Program-made: the position numbers and the translations under genes
In this document: positions 15,356 through 54,865 of the stretch, piece by piece
Layout: every line of letters begins with the position of its first letter
Numbering within the stretch: the first letter of the stretch is position 1
The notes under the pieces: model-generated
The model's input: only the letters and a program-made list of their open reading frames with translations
What the model was told of the DNA's origin: nothing
Database searches by the model: none
Assembly (NCBI GenBank): GCA_014380365.1
Contig: JACMJZ010000012.1
Span: 434,001 to 498,000 of the forward strand
Length of the DNA: 64,000 bases
Reading direction: 5' to 3'
Origin: Pyrinomonadaceae bacterium
GTDB taxonomy: Bacteria; Acidobacteriota; Blastocatellia; Pyrinomonadales; Pyrinomonadaceae

Positions 15356-17821
15356 ATGCCCAGCTACGCCGAGGTGGCTGTACCCGTGCATGTTCCACTC
15401 ACATTTACTTATCGTCTCCCGCCTTCGCTGGGTCGCATTGCGCAGCCTGGCTCGCGAATAATTGTCCCTTTTGGCAGGAGATTTCTAACCGGCTACATCG
15501 TCGGCCTGCATGAGAGGTTGCAAGCTGGAACCGATCTCAAAGAGTCAGATATCAAGGACGCGAAGGAAATCCTCGACGCGATCCCTTTGGTCACACCGGA
15601 ACTTCTCGAACTCACAAAGTGGGTCGCGGAGTATTACCTGGCGCCGTGGGGCGAGGTACTCAAGGCTGCATTGCCTCCGGGCATTAGTCCCACGGTTGAG
15701 CAGTTTCTAATTCTCAGCGATAGGGGACGCGCCGAAGCCAGCGAGCTAGGGTCAAACGACATACCGACGCCTAAACAGCGACTTCTGCGTTTGTTGGCTG
15801 ACTCAGGAGAGATGAGCGCCGCCGTCCTGCCTGACCACTTCGATAGCCGGTCAGCGATTAAGTTGGTCCGGGAACTCGAACGAGACGGCTTGGTGGACGC
15901 GGTTCAACGAACCGGCGGCGACTTTGTGAAAGCGAAGGTTCAGCGCCGGGTGCGTCTCTTGAATTTCGCTGATGAGACGGCGGGGACTGGAGAACAAAAG
16001 TTTACTGCCGCACAGCTAAGAGTGATCGAAGCCTTGCAGGGTCGCGAATCGGTGGCCCTGGCGCAGTTGCTTGCCGCTGCGGAAGTGAGCAGCTCAGTAA
16101 TCAACACGTTGCAGAAGAAGCATCTGATCGAAGTCTTCGAGGAGGAGACGCGACGCGATCCGTTAGGCGATATTACCTTCCCGCCGGTCAAAGATTACAA
16201 ACTCTCGAGCGATCAAGCAGCGGTATTAACCGAGATCAATCGACCTTTGCGAGCTAGAGCTTACGCTCCGTTCCTGCTGCATGGGGTCACCGGAAGCGGC
16301 AAGACAGAAGTCTACATTCGCGCCATGCGCGTGGCGCTGGAAGTTGGCAGGTCAGCGTTAATGCTGGTACCGGAAATTGCCCTGACACCGGTTTTCTCAC
16401 GCCGCTTGCGAGCGCATTTTGGCGACCGGGTGGCGATTTTTCATTCTTCGCTGTCGCGCGGCCAGCGCTTCGACGAGTGGACTCGGGTGCGCAACGGCGA
16501 TGCGCGCATCGTCATTGGAACTCGTTCCGCCGTCTTCGCTCCGATTAAGAACCTGGGACTTGTTATTGTCGACGAAGAGCACGAATCAACTTACCGGCAA
16601 CAGGATTCGCCCCACTATAACGGGCGTGATACTGCAATCGTGCGCGCCCAGAAAGAGTCTGCCGTCGTCATCCTGGGATCAGCTACGCCTTCGCTGGAAT
16701 CGTTTCACAACGCCAGCACCGGCAAGTATCGCTTCCTCGAGCTGCCCACCCGCCTTAATGATCGGCCCATGGCGACTGCCGAGATTATTGACATGCGCGA
16801 GGTGTTTTCGCGTCACCAAAAACCAAAAGTCTTTTCAGACGAGCTGCTCAAAGCCATCGCCGAGACTCATCAGAGAAAACAGCAGTCGATAATTCTATTG
16901 AATCGCCGCGGCTACTCGAGCTTTGTTCTTTGCCGGTCGTGTGGCGAGAGCGTTCAATGTCCCAATTGCGACGTGACGTTGACCTATCACAAGAGCGATT
17001 CAGTAATCATCTGCCACTATTGCGGCCATCGCGAACCTGCTCCTTCGAAGTGCCCGAGCTGCGAGGGCAAGTATATTTACTACGTCGGCGAAGGTACGCA
17101 GCAACTCGAGTCCATGCTCACTAAGTTGTTTCCCTCGATCAATATCGCCCGCGTCGATAGAGACACCACGGCGCGGCGCGGTGCATTCGAAAAGACTCTC
17201 TTCGATTTCAGTGAAGGCAAAATCGACATGCTGGTGGGCACGCAGATTTTGGCAAAAGGACACGACTTCCCCAACGTCACGCTAGTGGGCGTAGTGTCCG
17301 TTGACGCGGGATTGGCGTTGCCCGACTTCCGCGCAGCCGAAAGGACTTTCCAGTTGTTAACCCAAGTGGCTGGTCGCGCGGGGCGCGGCGATCTTCCCGG
17401 CAAAGTTCTAATCCAGACTTATCATCCTTATCACTACGCCCTGCGGCACGCGTGTGCCCAGGACTACGCAGGCTTTTACCAGGAGGAGATGCGTCACCGG
17501 CAAAACCACACGTATCCGCCGTTTGTGGCGCTGGCCTCGCTGATGGTTCATGGGCCCGAGATCACGCGAGTGAGAGCTGACGCGCTTGAACTCCGAAAGG
17601 CGCTGGACCGAGCCAATGGCGATCGCGCGGCCCGCATTCTCGGCCCGGCGCCAGCGCCTTTGGCGAGATTAAAGGGCGAGTATCGGGTGCAGTTGATCCT
17701 CAAGTGTCGCAATCGTCTCCAGTTGCGAACGATTATCGACACCGCGCTCAAGGCTCTTCACGAACGCAAAATTAATCTCAGATCGATAAACGTCGAGATC
17801 GATCCCGTATCGATAATGTAG
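15356..17821 (+). CDS. priA: Primosomal protein N' (replication restart helicase)
   Basis: Reloads the replicative helicase at stalled forks. The start at 15356 gives MPSYAEVAVPVHVPLTFTYR, the normal PriA N-terminus; the frame also opens at a GTG at 15284 but that adds unrelated residues, and neither has a good ribosome binding site. The 821-residue product has the DNA-binding N-domain, Walker A GVTGSGKTEVY, the DEEH box (VDEEHESTYRQ), and eight zinc-binding cysteines (CRSCGESVQCPNC ... CHYCGH ... CPSC) in the helicase core, followed by VGTQILAKGHDFPNV and the QVAGRAGR motif. All key elements are intact. Confidence 0.95.
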   Translation: MPSYAEVAVPVHVPLTFTYRLPPSLGRIAQPGSRIIVPFGRRFLTGYIVGLHERLQAGTDLKESDIKDAKEILDAIPLVTPELLELTKWVAEYYLAPWGEVLKAALPPGISPTVEQFLILSDRGRAEASELGSNDIPTPKQRLLRLLADSGEMSAAVLPDHFDSRSAIKLVRELERDGLVDAVQRTGGDFVKAKVQRRVRLLNFADETAGTGEQKFTAAQLRVIEALQGRESVALAQLLAAAEVSSSVINTLQKKHLIEVFEEETRRDPLGDITFPPVKDYKLSSDQAAVLTEINRPLRARAYAPFLLHGVTGSGKTEVYIRAMRVALEVGRSALMLVPEIALTPVFSRRLRAHFGDRVAIFHSSLSRGQRFDEWTRVRNGDARIVIGTRSAVFAPIKNLGLVIVDEEHESTYRQQDSPHYNGRDTAIVRAQKESAVVILGSATPSLESFHNASTGKYRFLELPTRLNDRPMATAEIIDMREVFSRHQKPKVFSDELLKAIAETHQRKQQSIILLNRRGYSSFVLCRSCGESVQCPNCDVTLTYHKSDSVIICHYCGHREPAPSKCPSCEGKYIYYVGEGTQQLESMLTKLFPSINIARVDRDTTARRGAFEKTLFDFSEGKIDMLVGTQILAKGHDFPNVTLVGVVSVDAGLALPDFRAAERTFQLLTQVAGRAGRGDLPGKVLIQTYHPYHYALRHACAQDYAGFYQEEMRHRQNHTYPPFVALASLMVHGPEITRVRADALELRKALDRANGDRAARILGPAPAPLARLKGEYRVQLILKCRNRLQLRTIIDTALKALHERKINLRSINVEIDPVSIM

Positions 17822-22417: not shown

Positions 22418-22483
22418 ATTTCAATCTGAGATCTCAAATCTAAAATCTCGAATCTCGGATCTGAAATCTGAAATCTGAAACTT
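22418..22483. repeat. AATCTGA-type heptad repeat between two genes
   Basis: About eight imperfect copies of a 7-base unit (AAATCTG and variants with CTC or GAG changes) fill the gap between the radical SAM stop and the glycosyltransferase start. On the reverse strand it reads as repeated CAGATTT. It resembles the 7-base repeats at 48388-48602 and 52936-53123 in design, though not in sequence. Confidence 0.75.
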
Positions 22484-44619: not shown

Positions 44620-45612
44620 CTAGAATGGCTCATCAAGGGCCCAATCCTCTGACCGGAACCTTCTCAGAGCTTTATCTACATCCTCATCGCTGCCAAATTC
44701 CTCAACTAGGTCCTTCCTGAGACGAACAACGCGAGACCTCTTCCCGTCGAGTCTTTTCCAATACTCCTTCCACACCCCATCAATGTGGCTTTGTCGCTCC
44801 CAACATCTCGCCGCCAGGTAAACGATGAGACCCAGCCAGACCGTTTCAACGGCGAGCGCGACGCTAACCTCTCCCGGCCTAACCACGCCCAGCCGGTAAG
44901 TCGAATAGTAGTCGTACACGACGACGGAGGTGAAAACCAATACGGGCAAAACGCAAATCGCCCTCGGTGATGCGGCCAACCATTGATTCTTCTTTTCCCC
45001 TTTCATATGAGGGACAGTAAAAACTTGCCTCATGGCAACCGCATGATAAAAGCCCGGTAACCGATCGTGGATTACCGCCTCCCTTAAGGATACGTTTAGG
45101 TTTTTTATTTCCCTGGATAAGCTGTATCTCATCATCAGTAAGATCAGGATGAGCGTCACGCCGCCGATAACACCTAAGTCATTGGCGTCGAATGCAATGC
45201 CGAAAAAGGGCGCCCTAATAGAGCGAACATTATCTATATATGCTCTCATCGACTCGTGACGAATTTGATCCCGGAACTTACTTACAGGACTCTTACCACC
45301 GCTCTCTCCAAGCCCAGCCAAGCCAAGGATCTTAATACTTTCGACGTCCTCCTTTTCCTTGAGTTTTGGATTATGAGCACAATCCAGAAGTTCACAAACG
45401 CGTCCTTCGTCCAAATTATATGCTTGTCTTAATCGATGGAGCTGCCATGATGAGCTCAAAGTGTTGTACCAACCGATGCCTATCAACACACTGGCAACGA
45501 CCAGAACTATGGTCACTGTTCTCGTTCGACTGGCGGCGTCACTTGTTACGCTAACGTAGCCATCCAAGTCGAATTCGCGATCGAGGGCGTGGTTTTCTAG
45601 TGAGTCAGACAT
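44620..45612 (-). CDS. Multi-pass membrane protein of unknown function
   Basis: A 330-residue protein with about four membrane helices: VTIVLVVASVLIGIGWYNTL near residue 35, LGVIGGVTLILILLMMRYSL near 150, AICVLPVLVFTSVVVYDYYS near 218 and VSVALAVETVWLGLIVYLAA near 250. Loops are highly charged. The end is an acidic helical tail (EEFGSDEDVDKALRRFRSED). No family is recognised. It stands in the same accessory patch as the other orphan genes. Confidence 0.68.
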   Translation of the reverse strand: MSDSLENHALDREFDLDGYVSVTSDAASRTRTVTIVLVVASVLIGIGWYNTLSSSWQLHRLRQAYNLDEGRVCELLDCAHNPKLKEKEDVESIKILGLAGLGESGGKSPVSKFRDQIRHESMRAYIDNVRSIRAPFFGIAFDANDLGVIGGVTLILILLMMRYSLSREIKNLNVSLREAVIHDRLPGFYHAVAMRQVFTVPHMKGEKKNQWLAASPRAICVLPVLVFTSVVVYDYYSTYRLGVVRPGEVSVALAVETVWLGLIVYLAARCWERQSHIDGVWKEYWKRLDGKRSRVVRLRKDLVEEFGSDEDVDKALRRFRSEDWALDEPF

Positions 45613-46434: not shown

Positions 46435-46609
46435 CGTGAGAATCCTCCCCGGATTTACCGTGTGATTGAGTTAAGTAGCAGAGCGAGGCACCTGAGGCGC
46501 GGAAGTATATGCCTATGCCGGAGAAAATCAAGGAAAAAGTGGTATTCCCGAAGGAAAACAAAGAAAGACCCTTGAAAAGCTCGCGATCTTAGTCGCTAAG
46601 GTCGCAAGA

Positions 46610-46805
46610 TTTGTTCTTCCGGTCGCGAGTCAGGTTCTTCCGGTCGCGAGTTTGGTTCTTCGGATTGGCAGATTGGCAATTTAGGTCGCGAGGTTGGCTC
46701 TTCAGATTAGGAGATTGGCAATTTAGGTCGCGAGGTTGGTTCTTCAGATTAGGAGATTGGCGATTTAGGTCGCGAGGTTGGTTCTTCAGATTGGGAGATT
46801 TGTAG
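46610..46805. repeat. 42-base tandem repeat array
   Basis: Three near-perfect copies of a 42-base unit built from GGTCGCGAGGTTGGTTCTTC and AGATTAGGAGATTGGCAATT, preceded by two 21-base partial units (GTTCTTCCGGTCGCGAGT). Further worn units follow to 46907. Copies are regular without spacers, so this is not a CRISPR array. Confidence 0.85.
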
Positions 46806-47003
46806 CCACGGTTGGAATCATATGTGCTCCGCCGCTGAGATGCGTCTTTCCGGTCGCGAGTTTGGTTTTTGAGATTGGAAGGTTGACTCTTGAGATCGCG
46901 AGGTCGGTAGCCACAGTCGCCGATCTTCAGCCTGAAAGGCTGTCAGAAAGTAGCCGGTGGTCGGCGCGGAGCGGAGACCACCGGCGCATCAAGAGATAGA
47001 AAG

Positions 47004-47283
47004 TCGGCAACCCGCAGGGTTGCCAGAAACAACCCTGGCACCTCTACGAAACGGTGTCAGAAACGGTTGCACTCCTCCAGTGTGCAGACAAACTGCTCGG
47101 GCTTTCCGGTGGGCTTCGCTTCGCTGCGACCACCGGACCACGAAAGAACTAGTCAGCAACCCGCAGGGTTGCCAGAAACACCGTGGCACCGCCATGAAAC
47201 TCGTCAGAAACGGTGGCACTCCTCCAGTTGCAGACAAACTGCTCGGGGCTTTCCTGTGGGCTTCGCTTCGCTGCGACCACCGG
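47004..47283. repeat. 130-base direct duplication made of hairpins
   Basis: Two copies (47004-47136 and 47153-47283) are about 85-90% alike. Each starts GCAACCCGCAGGGTTGCCAG, a small hairpin, and ends GGGCTTCGCTTCGCTGCGAC. The second copy runs into the upstream frame of the channel gene. Similar hairpins flank the pair (GCCTGAAAGGC at about 46932). Confidence 0.8.
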
Positions 47284-47329
47284 CTACTGTCTGACATCCC
47301 TTCAGGCTGAATGGGTGCTATTCTTAGGC

Positions 47330-48400
47330 ATGAGCCGATCGTCGTCTCCCGAAGCTCCTTCCCCGTCCGGGTACCAACGCCGAATCCTTTATGCCGTGAC
47401 CGCCGTGGCGATTGCGATTGCCGTTGGCACAGTCGGGTTCCATCTAATCGAGGGATGGTCGCTGCTTGATAGTCTCTACGTCGCAGCGCAAACTGTAACC
47501 ACCGTCGGTTATGGTGACACCACGCCGCGCACTGTAAATGGTCGCATCTTCGCCGTAGTCTTCATGATCGGCGGCGTCGGCGTTGTGCTCTACGCGCTGA
47601 CGACGGCGGTACAAACAATAGTGCAATCGGAAATCATCGCGACGCTGGGCCAGAAACGACAGTCACGAAAAATAGGAAAGATGCGAAACCACTTCATTGT
47701 TTGCGGCGCTGGACGCGTTGGTTCACATCTGGTGCGCGCGTTACTTGGCAGCCAGGAGATTTTCATTGTTATTGAACGGGATCCGCAGCGTGTCGCGGAA
47801 TTGACGGACTTGGGAGTCGCGGTGCTGGTGCGCGATGCGACGCTGGAGGAGAGTTTGCGCGAGGCAGGCGTCGAGAACGCGCGTGGACTGGCTGCGTGTC
47901 TCCCGGACGACGCGGACAACGTCTACGTGGTATTGACGGCCCACGATCTGAATCCGGGACTACACATCGTGGCCCGCGCGGCGGAAGAGCAAGCAGAAGC
48001 CAAACTGATTCGCGCCGGCGCTAACCGGGTAGTCGCTCCGACGATTATCGGCGGCCATCGCATGGCCATGGCGTTGACGAAGCCGGCGGTTGACGATTTT
48101 CTCGGATCGATTACGGCCAACAAGCTGGAGCTGGCATTTGAACAGCTCGAGGTTGCGCCTGAGTCGCATCTGGTGGGAAGGAAGTTGAGTGAGACAAACA
48201 TTCGTTCGGACCTGGACATAGTGGTGGTTAGCATTCGGCGCAGCGGTGGGGAGATATTCTTCAATCCGAGCGGCGAGGCAACTATCGAAAGCGGCGACAT
48301 GCTGATTGCAATTGGACACGTTGAGTCGCTGATGAAACTTACTGCTTTGGCGAAGGGCGACAAAAAGTCCAAAGCCCAAGGTCCAAAGTCCAAAGTCTGA
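47330..48400 (+). CDS. Potassium channel with TrkA-N/TrkA-C domains
   Basis: A 356-residue two-helix K+ channel subunit with cytoplasmic RCK/TrkA domain. It has two membrane helices around the pore loop, with the selectivity filter TVTTVGYGDTTPRTV, an NAD-binding TrkA-N fold (HFIVCGAGRVGSHLVRALLG) and a TrkA-C domain near the end (SHLVGRKLSETNIRSDLDIV). The start at 47330 matches the family; the frame to 47213 is repeat-encoded. The last residues (KSKAQGPKSKV) are encoded by the first arm of a long heptad palindrome, so the original tail may have been changed. Confidence 0.9.
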   Translation: MSRSSSPEAPSPSGYQRRILYAVTAVAIAIAVGTVGFHLIEGWSLLDSLYVAAQTVTTVGYGDTTPRTVNGRIFAVVFMIGGVGVVLYALTTAVQTIVQSEIIATLGQKRQSRKIGKMRNHFIVCGAGRVGSHLVRALLGSQEIFIVIERDPQRVAELTDLGVAVLVRDATLEESLREAGVENARGLAACLPDDADNVYVVLTAHDLNPGLHIVARAAEEQAEAKLIRAGANRVVAPTIIGGHRMAMALTKPAVDDFLGSITANKLELAFEQLEVAPESHLVGRKLSETNIRSDLDIVVVSIRRSGGEIFFNPSGEATIESGDMLIAIGHVESLMKLTALAKGDKKSKAQGPKSKV

Positions 48401-48602
48401 AGATCAGAGGTCAGAGGTCAGAGGTCAGAAGTCAGAAGTCAGGAATTGACCTTCGGCAACGAGCTGGAACAGCTCAATGAACACTCTGACCCCTGATTCG
48501 GACCTCTGACCTCTGACTTCTGACTTCTGACCTCTGACCTCTGACTTCTGACTTCTGACTTCTGACCTCTGACCTCTGACCTCTGATCTTCAGACTTTGG
48601 AC
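48388..48602. repeat. Perfect 55-base inverted repeat of heptads filling the gap
   Basis: Arm 1 (48388-48442) and arm 2 (48548-48602) are exact complements over 55 bases, each holding GTCCAAAGTCTGAAGATC and then repeated CAGAGGT / CAGAAGT heptads. The right-hand side carries extra heptads (from about 48484), so the array has expanded. It fills the gap between the channel and the epimerase genes; arm 1 also codes for the channel's C-terminal tail. Confidence 0.92.
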
Positions 48603-48623
48603 TTTAGACCTTGGACTTTCGAC

Positions 48624-49466
48624 ATGAAGATTCTAGTTACCGGCGGCAGTGGTTACCTCGGCACCCATGTTCGCCGGTTTTTCAATGCCGATGATTTTTC
48701 CCGCCGCTCCGGCTACGACGTCCTTGATAGCGAAGCCGTCAGGACCGTAGCGGGTTATGACGTCGTCATTCACCTGGCGGCACATCTCGACAAGGATCCC
48801 GCCGCGGCAGTCGAGTGCTTTCAAACAAATGCGCAAGGCACCGCGAATGTGATCAGGAACATGCGTTCCGGAGCTGTGATCGTCTACGCGTCTACCAAAG
48901 ACGTTTATGGCGCGCATGCCGCCGCATACGACGAGGTCCCCGAAAGTTGCCCGACCGACTACTGCGGTCAGTCTGCGTTGGAGTGGTCGAAGTTTTTAGG
49001 CGAACGCTACCTGGAATATTACGCGCGGCAGCAAGGAGTTCGCACTTGCATCTTTCGCATGTCCACGGTTTATGCCCGGCCGTCAGACGGCAATGAATAT
49101 GGTTTCGTTACGCACTACACAGAATCGGTTAAGCGCGGCCACGCCATTCGACTTCCCCTCGGCGGCAATCCCATCCGCGACATCATGCATGTAGACGACT
49201 TCTCGCGGGCATGCCAGGCTTTCATAAGGTCGTCTCACGTTTATGGCCTGTATAATCTGGGCGGTGGAAAAGCAAACGCTGCAAGCCTGCGGACTATGGT
49301 CGATACTGTTGGGCGATTGATTCAACTGGAACCCGTAATCATCGAAGATGAGGCTTTGCCGCATCCGGTGCCGGTTAACTATGTTTCTGATTTGAGTCGT
49401 ATACGCGAGCAACTTGATTGGGAACCGGAAATTGGAATCGAAGAGGGACTGCGCAGTCTTGTGTAG
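48624..49466 (+). CDS. NAD-dependent epimerase/dehydratase family protein lacking the catalytic Tyr
   Basis: A 280-residue extended SDR with the NAD motif TGGSGYLG (6-13), YASTKDVYG and the GERYLEYYARQQGVRTCIFR block. Where the family has YxxxK this protein has LEWSK: Leu119 and Lys123, aligned with Glu127 as in the other epimerase of this window (PYAVAKLVGE). The Tyr that moves the proton is therefore missing. It leads a heptose/LPS gene set, so it may still bind a nucleotide sugar. Sugar epimerases without this Tyr may use another residue or be non-catalytic. Confidence 0.8.
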   Translation: MKILVTGGSGYLGTHVRRFFNADDFSRRSGYDVLDSEAVRTVAGYDVVIHLAAHLDKDPAAAVECFQTNAQGTANVIRNMRSGAVIVYASTKDVYGAHAAAYDEVPESCPTDYCGQSALEWSKFLGERYLEYYARQQGVRTCIFRMSTVYARPSDGNEYGFVTHYTESVKRGHAIRLPLGGNPIRDIMHVDDFSRACQAFIRSSHVYGLYNLGGGKANAASLRTMVDTVGRLIQLEPVIIEDEALPHPVPVNYVSDLSRIREQLDWEPEIGIEEGLRSLV

Positions 49467-52456: not shown

Positions 52457-52975
52457 ATGACAATTCAACCAATCGATGCGACGTCACTGATCCTCAATCG
52501 CGAGGGGATCGTTGCGCGGGTAAAGAGAGCCAGGACGGAAGGGTTGACCGTCGTTCTGGCTAACGGCTGCTTTGACGTCCTGCACGCGGGCCACGTGCGA
52601 TATCTCAAGGGGGCCCGGGCGCTGGGGGACCTGCTTGTAGTTGCAGTGAATTCCGACAAACAGGTGAACGAATTGAAGGGCGCAGGCAGGCCGCTCCTTC
52701 CCGAAGCTGAGCGAGCAGAGATTATCGCGTCACTGGAAGCCGTCGATCTGGTGACAATATTCGGCGAACCCACCGTGACCGAGTTATTACTCGCGTTAAA
52801 GCCCGACGTCCATGCCAAGGGCACGGATTACACCGAAGAAACGGTTCCCGAGCGCGATGTGGTACGATCTTATGGTGGCCGCGTAGCCATTGTTGGAGAT
52901 CCAAAAGATCATTCAACTTCGGAACTACTTAGGAAAGTGGGCAGTGGGCGCGGAACAGTGAGCAGTGAGCAGTGA
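52457..52975 (+). CDS. rfaE2: Heptose-1-phosphate adenylyltransferase
   Basis: Joins ATP and heptose-1-phosphate to ADP-heptose, the second half of HldE. The 172-residue nucleotidyltransferase has [20 protein letters not shown] with the HxGH motif, [13 protein letters not shown], and [13 protein letters not shown]. The ATG at 52457 is chosen: the frame upstream is a family-B repeat. The end [14 protein letters not shown] is encoded by a heptad repeat. Confidence 0.92.
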
Positions 52976-53123
52976 GCAGTGGGCAGGAAATTATGAACCA
53001 AAGCTGCCTTCTTCTCCGCGCACCATCTACGGCTCTCTTGGAATAATGTTGCTGGGTACCGCTAAACTGGCCACTGCCAGCTGCAACTGCTCACTGATCA
53101 CTGCCCACTGCCCACTGCCCACT
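52936..53123. repeat. GTGAGCA/GTGGGCA heptad palindrome between rfaE2 and waaC
   Basis: The left side has GCAGTGAGCAGTGAGCAGTG heptads (52936-52986), the right side CTGCCCACTGCCCACTGCCC (about 53074-53123), its imperfect complement. The loop of about 85 bases holds no gene. It gives rfaE2 its last residues and ends just before the waaC start. Confidence 0.85.
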
Positions 53124-54313: not shown

Positions 54314-54865
54314 TTGCGTAGAGGTGGAACCTGGATTCAGCGTTGGCGCGTGCCCTTCGGATTCCTTTGTGCGGCGTTGTTTCTGCTGCTCGCGCGCCCG
54401 CGTCCAGCGACATTGTTGGCCGGAGCGTTAGTTTCACTTTTCGGACTATCGCTGCGTGCCTGGGCGGCAGGTCACATTAGAAAAAACGACGCCCTCGCCA
54501 TCTCAGGTCCATATGCTTACACCCGCAACCCTCTCTACCTTGGTAGTTTTTTACTGGGACTCGGATTCACCATTGGGTCTGGCCGGTGGTATCTTGGGCT
54601 TCTTTTCGCCGCGCTCTTTCTTGGCATCTATTTTCCGGTAATGCGCGTCGAATCGCGGACGATGCAGCAACTTTTCGGCGATTCGTTTACTCGCTATGCC
54701 GGCGCAGTGCCGCTGTTTTTTCCCAGGTTCACTCCTTACCGCACGGGTGAACCGAAAGTAGGATTTGACCGCAGGCTCTATCTAAGATATCGGGAGTATG
54801 AAGCGGCGTTGGGACTTTTGTTCGCCTGGGGCTTGTTGGTTGTGAAGGCTTATTACCTGCGATGA
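54314..54865 (+). CDS. Isoprenylcysteine carboxyl methyltransferase-like membrane protein
   Basis: A 183-residue membrane methyltransferase of the ICMT/PEMT type, with about four helices and the family tail AISGPYAYTRNPLYLGSFLL followed by a SAM-binding VESRTMQQLFGDSFTRYA. The frame runs upstream through a repeat to 54272 with no ATG. The TTG at 54314, with GGAG about 10 bases upstream, is the likeliest start. Bacterial members methylate various lipids or small molecules; the substrate here is unknown. The stop overlaps the next start by 4 bases (ATGA). Confidence 0.82.
   Translation: MRRGGTWIQRWRVPFGFLCAALFLLLARPRPATLLAGALVSLFGLSLRAWAAGHIRKNDALAISGPYAYTRNPLYLGSFLLGLGFTIGSGRWYLGLLFAALFLGIYFPVMRVESRTMQQLFGDSFTRYAGAVPLFFPRFTPYRTGEPKVGFDRRLYLRYREYEAALGLLFAWGLLVVKAYYLR

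Follow-up and report, generated by a model that had tools for sequence, protein, structure and literature searches.

Nested inverted arrays of seven-nucleotide repeats between co-directional genes of a Pyrinomonadaceae bacterium

Introduction

How does the space between two neighboring genes come to be a long palindrome made of short tandem repeats? The question is raised by a locus in a 64,000-nt stretch of a Pyrinomonadaceae genome (contig JACMJZ010000012.1, positions 434,001 to 498,000 of the forward strand). This whole stretch is called the window here, and its positions are counted from its first base. Within it, the end of an ion-channel gene and the start of an epimerase gene are joined by inverted arrays of 7-nt units (heptads), which a first-pass annotation had singled out. 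In what follows a seed is the sequence of the repeated unit, and the source genome is G000.

Results

The junction is a single palindrome with two layers of heptads

The junction between the channel and epimerase genes (48364-48623) forms one long palindrome of 7-nt repeats. Its features, and those of two further heptad sites in the window, are as follows.

47213..48400, plus strand: TrkA-N/ion-channel gene, upstream; longest ORF, with its last codons and stop in the left arm
48364..48397, plus strand: outer left heptads, AAAGTCC type, putative older layer (Tandem Repeats Finder); same type at the same site in relatives
48367..48442, plus strand: left arm, 73/76 complementary to 48548-48623 and perfect over 48385-48442
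48391..48410, plus strand: seed junction of the left arm, AAAGTCC to TCAGAGG with a 1-nt register slip
48404..48442, plus strand: inner left heptads TCAGAGG/TCAGAAG, putative younger layer, absent at the junction in the other genomes read
48443..48547, no strand: loop, 105 nt between the arms, including extra right-side heptads
48548..48623, minus strand: right arm, reverse complement of the left arm
48580..48599, minus strand: seed junction of the right arm, mirror of 48391-48410
48624..49466, plus strand: NAD-dependent epimerase gene, downstream; Pfam Epimerase 8.2e-30, same start in orthologues
22423..22480, no strand: heptad array AATCTGA at a co-directional junction, single array
52956..53110, no strand: inverted heptad pair CAGTGAG (AGTGRGC), arms 52956-52980 and 53086-53110, 23/25

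The first-pass annotation had reported perfect inverted heptad arms of 55 bases. The palindrome is real but the arms are longer: they are identical without mismatch over 58 nt (48385-48442 and 48548-48605), and the match continues at 73/76 over 76 nt. The left arm does encode the last residues of the channel, as had been proposed, since the stop codon (48398-48400) lies inside the arm and the final residues (KKSKAQGPKSKV) are written by the outer AAAGTCC-type heptads. The start of the channel gene (Pfam TrkA_N 1.2e-32, with Ion_trans_2 and TrkA_C) is uncertain and was placed at about 47396 in the gene call. The right arm had been said to run to about 20 bases from the next start; its perfect part ends 18 nt before the ATG, and the wider arm reaches the base immediately before it. 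The surplus of heptads described on one side was found on the right, at 48484-48547.

Both layers of heptads, together with the register slip between them, recur mirror-imaged in the right arm. A search of the 4.98-Mb genome with the 20-nt layer junction, allowing 2 mismatches, gave two matches, one in each arm. Two arms that had grown independently are not expected to share such a junction. These results indicate that one arm arose by local copying of its partner as the reverse complement, and arm copying at this locus is well supported.

Window arrays were sought over lags 2-30 (at least 80% identity over 35 nt) and occurred at lags 7, 14, 21 and 28 only; one of the two lag-21 arrays, at 46600, belongs to an unrelated repeat of 21 nt. 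Mononucleotide shuffles of the window gave no lag-7 arrays in 20 trials. The two other heptad sites noted earlier in the window, with seeds of their own, also proved genuine. The AATCTGA site is one array, for which an inverted partner was sought and none found, and the site at 52936-53123 holds the CAGTGAG pair, which is flanked by a CTP_transf_like and a Glyco_transf_9 gene.

Longer repeats also occur near the channel gene. Upstream of it (46600-46904) lie repeats with periods of 21 and 42 nt (GGTCGCGAG...), 21 being 3 x 7, and at 47002-47283, close to where the longest channel ORF begins, a 147-nt unit is present about twice, the copies being 90% similar.

The outer layer is shared with relatives and the inner layer is not

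We read the same junction in relatives, one genome per species. The stop codon directly adjoins the start in G004, G012 and G005 and overlaps it in G018, and short heptad-free spacers were present in G014 and G008. Arms of the AGTCCAA type flank both sides of the junction in G006, G007 and G013, and in G009, G001 and G002 such an arm was seen on the left side only. Two loci, L021 (G020) and L022 (G029), were excluded because the epimerase gene does not adjoin the channel gene. The inner TCAGARG arms were found at this junction in none of the relatives read, with each species represented by one genome. Since the outer arms are shared and the inner arms are confined to the source genome, an older palindrome appears to have been enlarged from inside by a younger one. 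Judged from these junctions, the AGTCCAA layer is the older and the TCAGARG layer would have been added within it in the source lineage. The recent copying suggested by the first-pass annotation thus agrees with the unique mirrored junction and with the lack of inner arms in the relatives read, but recency does not extend to the outer AGTCCAA-type arms, which relatives have at the same site.

In a member of another genus of the family (G021), 9-nt units (AGAGTCTAG type) make up the junction spacer as a palindrome (38/42). That spot is thus filled differently there. The locus examined there (L020) was also recorded as an inward inverted GGGAGTCTT-type 9-nt array at the orthologue of the window junction.

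Inverted heptad arrays form a class with many seeds and fixed polarity

A survey of lags 1-30 showed the excess to lie at lag 7. There were 26 and 39 lag-7 arrays per 400 kb of the source genome and 7 in the window; other lags from 4 to 11 gave at most 7 arrays per 400 kb of the same genome, and mononucleotide shuffles gave none at lags 5-9. A search of the genome for heptad palindromes, as the first-pass annotation had recommended, found 52 inverted pairs in 864 kb, from which we extrapolate that the whole genome probably holds about 300. Over eight sets of stretches (1.66 Mb) we defined 98 inverted pairs, and these use 52 distinct seeds, which supports the earlier idea that the same process acts on different seeds.

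Pairing was frequent at two periods. An inverted partner was present for 116/153 strong arrays (11 of these by a relaxed match only); by period, 122/184 lag-7 arrays and 9/20 lag-9 arrays had one, and none of 26 arrays at lags 6, 8, 10, 11 and 12 did. The unit is therefore not always 7 nt, as we had supposed, because 9-nt inverted arrays exist. Three inward inverted arrays of 9-nt units (GGGAGTCTT type) were seen in intergenic positions of the fetched C72 stretch of G029 (54662-54842, 74437-74632 and 79472-79647).

Polarity was fixed for each seed. Among the 16 seeds seen at least twice, 60 of 62 pairs had the same orientation as others of their seed; 20,000 simulations gave a mean of 42.9 and a maximum of 52. 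A purine-rich 5' arm was a tendency only (33/54 seeds above one half, 19 below), and a shared RRT motif in left arms was contradicted by the seed ACTGAGG. There may be a tendency for unpaired arrays to face away from the nearest gene: 19 did and 9 did not (13 unclassified and 7 genic ones set aside).

Array density differed strongly between genomes, with 43 arrays per 100 kb in G029, 18 in G031, 10 in G004 and 5 in G017 and none in 100 kb each of G015, G023, G033 and G037. No strong array was found in G003 (28 kb read), G008 (25 kb) or G005 (10 kb). Because G003, G005, G008 and G015 are congeners of the source genome, the trait varies within the genus.

The heptad GTCAGAR in three exact tandem copies occurred in at least 120 stretches of a species-level collection. 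Among the matches listed were cyanobacteria, Acidobacteria, Deltaproteobacteria, Nitrospirae, Verrucomicrobia, Kiritimatiellota, members of the Bacteroidetes, Chloroflexi and others. At 80 of these loci we looked for an inverted partner within 250 nt and found 12 inward, 0 outward and 68 without one, against a background of 0.018 per 250 nt. In the phylum of the window, 17/297 genomes carry the triple heptad. By far the most matches of these 297 genomes, 212, were in G269, which belongs to another family of the phylum.

Perfect arms are known to lead to misassembly, and the palindromes could in principle be assembly artefacts. We consider this scarcely credible, because the same architecture is present in several assemblies, at loci of several phyla and around unrelated loops, and because orthologous places are filled with different letters.

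Arrays lie between co-directional genes and begin near the upstream stop codon

We found 257 arrays, of which 250 could be placed relative to genes and 7 could not: 205 lie in co-directional gaps, 15 in convergent gaps, 4 in divergent gaps and 26 in genes. Per intergenic kb this corresponds to 0.90 arrays for co-directional, 0.35 for convergent and 0.06 for divergent gaps. The gene calls came from a home-made caller, in which starts are rough, stops are reliable and small genes may be missed; it does not call tRNAs, so arrays between tRNA genes were classed by the flanking protein genes.

Outside a tRNA gene cluster described below, the upstream foot of the hairpin lay a median of 2.5 nt after the stop codon, within 15 nt of it in 53/72 cases, and overlapped it in 26. 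All 20 feet in G029 fell between -22 and +10 of the stop. The downstream foot lay a median of 25 nt before the next start. Part of this proximity is accounted for by random placement in the same gaps: for 84 pairs, the fraction within 30 nt of a stop was 0.74 observed against 0.51 at random, within 30 nt of a start 0.51 against 0.51, and near both 0.43 against 0.32. Where a gap offered 40 nt of slack or more, the stop was preferred 23 to 9 without the tRNA cluster (P=0.02) and 28 to 16 with it (P=0.10).

These positions bear on whether the arrays are selected as intercistronic RNA hairpins, which would protect the upstream message, be cut by RNase III or insulate genes or tRNAs, with different seeds converging on one architecture. 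The foot at the upstream stop, the preference for co-directional gaps, the occurrence between tRNA genes, the high share of partnered strong arrays and the 9-nt-unit palindrome at the same junction in another genus are all consistent with such a function. The predicted RNA fold of 48360-48630 also fits it, having an energy of -157.4 kcal/mol (z -16) that none of 200 shuffles equaled; if transcribed, the junction would make a very stable stem between two cistrons. Sense-strand transition mismatches between arms, however, were G-U in 71 cases and A-C in 85 (P=0.30), and with no G-U excess over A-C, pairing in RNA is not visibly under selection. The stop preference in gaps with slack is modest, and the array-less stretches of G003, G005, G008 and G015 indicate that members of the genus can do without the feature. 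Matches to Rfam were miRNA models only, below their gathering scores, and were judged to be chance. We regard selection for an RNA hairpin as unlikely, though still to be reckoned with.

The same positions speak to transcription terminators, which are likewise stem-loops just 3' of stop codons. Convergent gaps, however, are under-used (0.35 against 0.90 per kb), the loops are long (median 44 nt, and 105 nt at the window locus), no terminator-like site was found on the window junction, and palindromes stand between adjacent tRNA genes of one cluster. It is very improbable that the arrays are terminators. A role in translational coupling, in which the hairpin would join stop and start, was also considered and is weakened by the distance of the 3' foot from the next start and by the fact that tRNA gaps are untranslated.

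Sixty-four co-directional junctions are conserved between G000 and G004. Arrays were present at 8 of them in G000, at 11 in G004 and at 4 in both, with different seeds in 3 of these 4.

Palindromes fill gaps of a tRNA cluster that are mostly short in sister genomes

A cluster of 28 tRNA genes (ARAGORN) lies at C5:275.5-282.3 kb of the source genome. It includes 22 gaps that are 60 nt or longer. The strict scan found an inverted heptad pair in 12 of them and an array in another 3 and scored the remaining 7 as empty, although in three of these (Tyr-Trp, Val-Arg and Lys-Ile) heptad arms that are shorter or not as regular can be made out by eye. Arm matches are as high as 30/30 in the Asn-Lys gap and 27/27 in the Met-Ala gap, and extend to odd units. 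Filled gaps are mostly 77-103 nt. A near-identical arm of 31-32 nt occurs in the Pro-Gly, Phe-Val and Ile-Gln gaps, as the right arm in two and the left arm in one.

The tRNA genes follow a largely similar order in the sister genomes G003 and G005, where 16/20 and 10/11 gaps, respectively, measure 1-21 nt; G007 has other seeds in other gaps. Seven palindrome-bearing gaps of G000 (Tyr-Trp, Arg-Leu, Leu-Leu, Glu-His, Gly-Cys, Phe-Val and Met-Ala) had a counterpart read in G003, G005 or G007. These counterparts measure 1-14 nt except for Glu-His, which is 80 nt in G003 and 76 nt in G005 and free of heptads, and Leu-Leu in G007, which is 87 nt and has another seed. The arrays at these gaps and at the G000/G004 junctions look like separate additions to short spacers.

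A spacer of 93-97 nt between tRNA-Ser(gct) and tRNA-Arg(gcg) is heptad-free and looks conserved between G000 (C5:275969-276065, in L072) and G007 (L243). It is perhaps a candidate small RNA.

Mobile elements account poorly for the class

Clean differences between filled and empty gaps, similar sizes in the tRNA cluster and constant polarity of each seed would also be expected if a palindromic element, MITE- or ERIC-like, were moved whole by an enzyme encoded elsewhere in the genome. Such an element should carry its loop with it, and one same-seed pair with homologous loops was found in G029. In the comparison of loops, however, same-seed pairs exceeded the shuffled maximum in 0/32 cases in the source genome, 1/43 in G029, 0/2 in G004 and 0/2 in G031, and different-seed pairs in 6/433, 1/167, 2/34 and 0/19, respectively. 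The highest different-seed scores in the source genome came from overlapping loops or from loops with heptads or tRNA genes inside. The number of seeds, 52 in 98 pairs, also argues against an element moved whole. No target-site duplication was seen by eye between filled and empty gaps, sequences that are too divergent for the comparison. We consider this origin quite doubtful. The G029 pair, at 44944-45129 and 16551-16687 of the fetched C72 stretch, is the sole instance of same-seed hairpins with homologous loops above the shuffled maximum, and its two members are in opposite orientation.

A more specific form of mobility is that of REP sequences spread by RAYT, a Y1 transposase. Matches to Y1_Tnp are common in array-rich genomes, with at least 4 in each of 12. 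A heptad array, however, lay within 600 nt of 0/20 Y1 genes (0.16 for random placements), G008 has 15 Y1 matches and no strong array in its 25 kb, and G023 has 9 matches with none in 100 kb of one contig and 2 strong arrays in a further 10 kb. Spread by RAYT is therefore hardly plausible.

Arm mirroring is strong at the window locus and weak elsewhere

If copying within a locus were general, each arm should resemble its own partner more than arms at other loci. In the source genome an arm was the best match to its own partner in 2/42 testable pairs (mean rank 0.61, P=0.011), so that strict mirroring was not borne out as a genome-wide rule. In G029, with 20 pairs, this was never the case and the mean rank was 0.43, that is, no mirroring. 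Shuffling the order of units gave mean ranks of 0.56 in 51 pairs of the source genome (P=0.03) and 0.64 in 22 pairs of G029, and this test reached P<0.05 at the window locus only. Genome-wide mirroring is thus weak, and within-locus copying is not established for most loci.

Two candidate factors showed no relation to the arrays. No match to the SbcD model TIGR00619 (E<=0.001) was found in the source genome, and among 14 genomes of the genus 12 had none, G014 a weak match and G015 a full one. Loss of SbcD, a palindrome nuclease, as a permissive factor found no support, since matches were also lacking in the array-poor G003, G005, G008 and G011 and a full one was found in G029, the densest genome. 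Reverse transcriptase (RVT_1) was present in 11/20 genomes with no pattern relative to arrays.

Discussion

We lean, with modest confidence, toward the view that intercistronic inverted arrays of short units arise and change at the DNA level, by slippage combined with template switching. Units of 7 nt, less often 9 nt, would first multiply head to tail; the excess at period 7 is what points to replication slippage as their source. A polymerase would then switch template on the folded-back strand and lay down the reverse complement of the arm nearby. Template switching can generate and maintain hairpins, according to the available part of one report (PMC8794818). At the window locus the outcome of reverse-complement copying is shown by the unique mirrored junction, and the enzymatic step is what we infer from it. 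The product would survive where it does least harm, between co-directional cistrons, where it would often begin at a stop codon or tRNA 3' end and leave the next start or tRNA free. The positions themselves are observed, and tolerance is the presumed reason for them. New seeds would in turn grow within old arms and give nested palindromes; at the window locus a new seed is nested in the old arms.

Against this DNA-level origin stands the constant polarity of each seed, also across phyla, which random template switching does not predict. The near-identical arm in several tRNA gaps indicates that arms move between loci as well, by some other route, and the uniform size of the filled tRNA gaps looks more like insertion of a unit than growth in place. 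It is possible, if less than probable, that a process indifferent to the letters but faithful to the architecture (tandem 7-nt, sometimes 9-nt, units in inward arms of about 30 nt between cistrons, including tRNAs) both makes and inserts palindromes, and cross-phylum polarity may hint at a shared enzyme or replication habit.

Within one genus, some genomes are rich in arrays and others have no strong array in the parts that were read, and junctions can be compared in their filled and empty states. Together with the many seeds and the tRNA cluster, this allows direct tests of how heptads and their inverted partners originate. There is also a warning for annotation: in genomes of this kind, protein tails and 'structured RNAs' between genes may have arisen as by-products of repeats.

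Several families of intergenic repeats are already known. REP/BIME and ERIC sequences are palindromic, intercistronic and transcribed. The arrays described here share the first two properties and presumably the third, and differ in having neither the fixed, heptad-free sequence of those elements nor heptads near the 20 Y1 genes examined. STRR heptamers form arrays between genes in heterocystous cyanobacteria, and there is direct overlap, since the GTCAGAR heptad itself was found in Nostoc and other cyanobacteria. A search of open-licence papers on heptanucleotide or palindromic intergenic repeats of Acidobacteria, on heptamer inverted repeats at stop codons and on palindromes of tRNA operons found no account of the present variant.

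Hairpins made by template switching are alike in that a single event of reverse-complement copying yields perfect arms; the available part of that report makes no mention of heptad arrays (PMC8794818). The TAACTGA repeats of Beggiatoaceae, Cyanobacteria and Bacteroidetes resemble ours in having a 7-nt unit, in being intergenic and in their scatter over distant lineages. As far as the available text describes them, they differ in having one seed, in lying mostly upstream of starts and in being nearly all direct, with a single inverted set among 170 in the genome examined (PMC4679880).

The closest likeness is to the intergenic heptamer repeats of Xanthomonas (GGGAATC) and Nostoc (GGGGA(C/T)T), which have been studied as G-quadruplexes (PMC4692102). 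In the part of that work available to us, convergent neighbors numbered 70 and 75 among the 186 and 183 arrays of two Xanthomonas genomes, and the commonness of 7-nt repeats was guessed to reflect the polymerase footprint (PMC4692102). Those repeats share with ours the 7-nt unit, the intergenic position near the 3' end of the upstream gene, convergent pairs, and scarcity between divergent genes. As described there, they use one G-rich seed, whereas here 52 seeds make up 98 pairs, a 9-nt version exists, arrays lie between tRNA genes, and seeds are nested with a mirrored junction. The window heptads TCAGAGG, TCAGAAG and AAAGTCC lack a GGG tract, which some other seeds have (AGGGTTC in G029). Heptamer repeats with convergent pairs are thus already known from Xanthomonas, and it is in its many seeds, its nesting and its placement between tRNA genes that the form described here differs.
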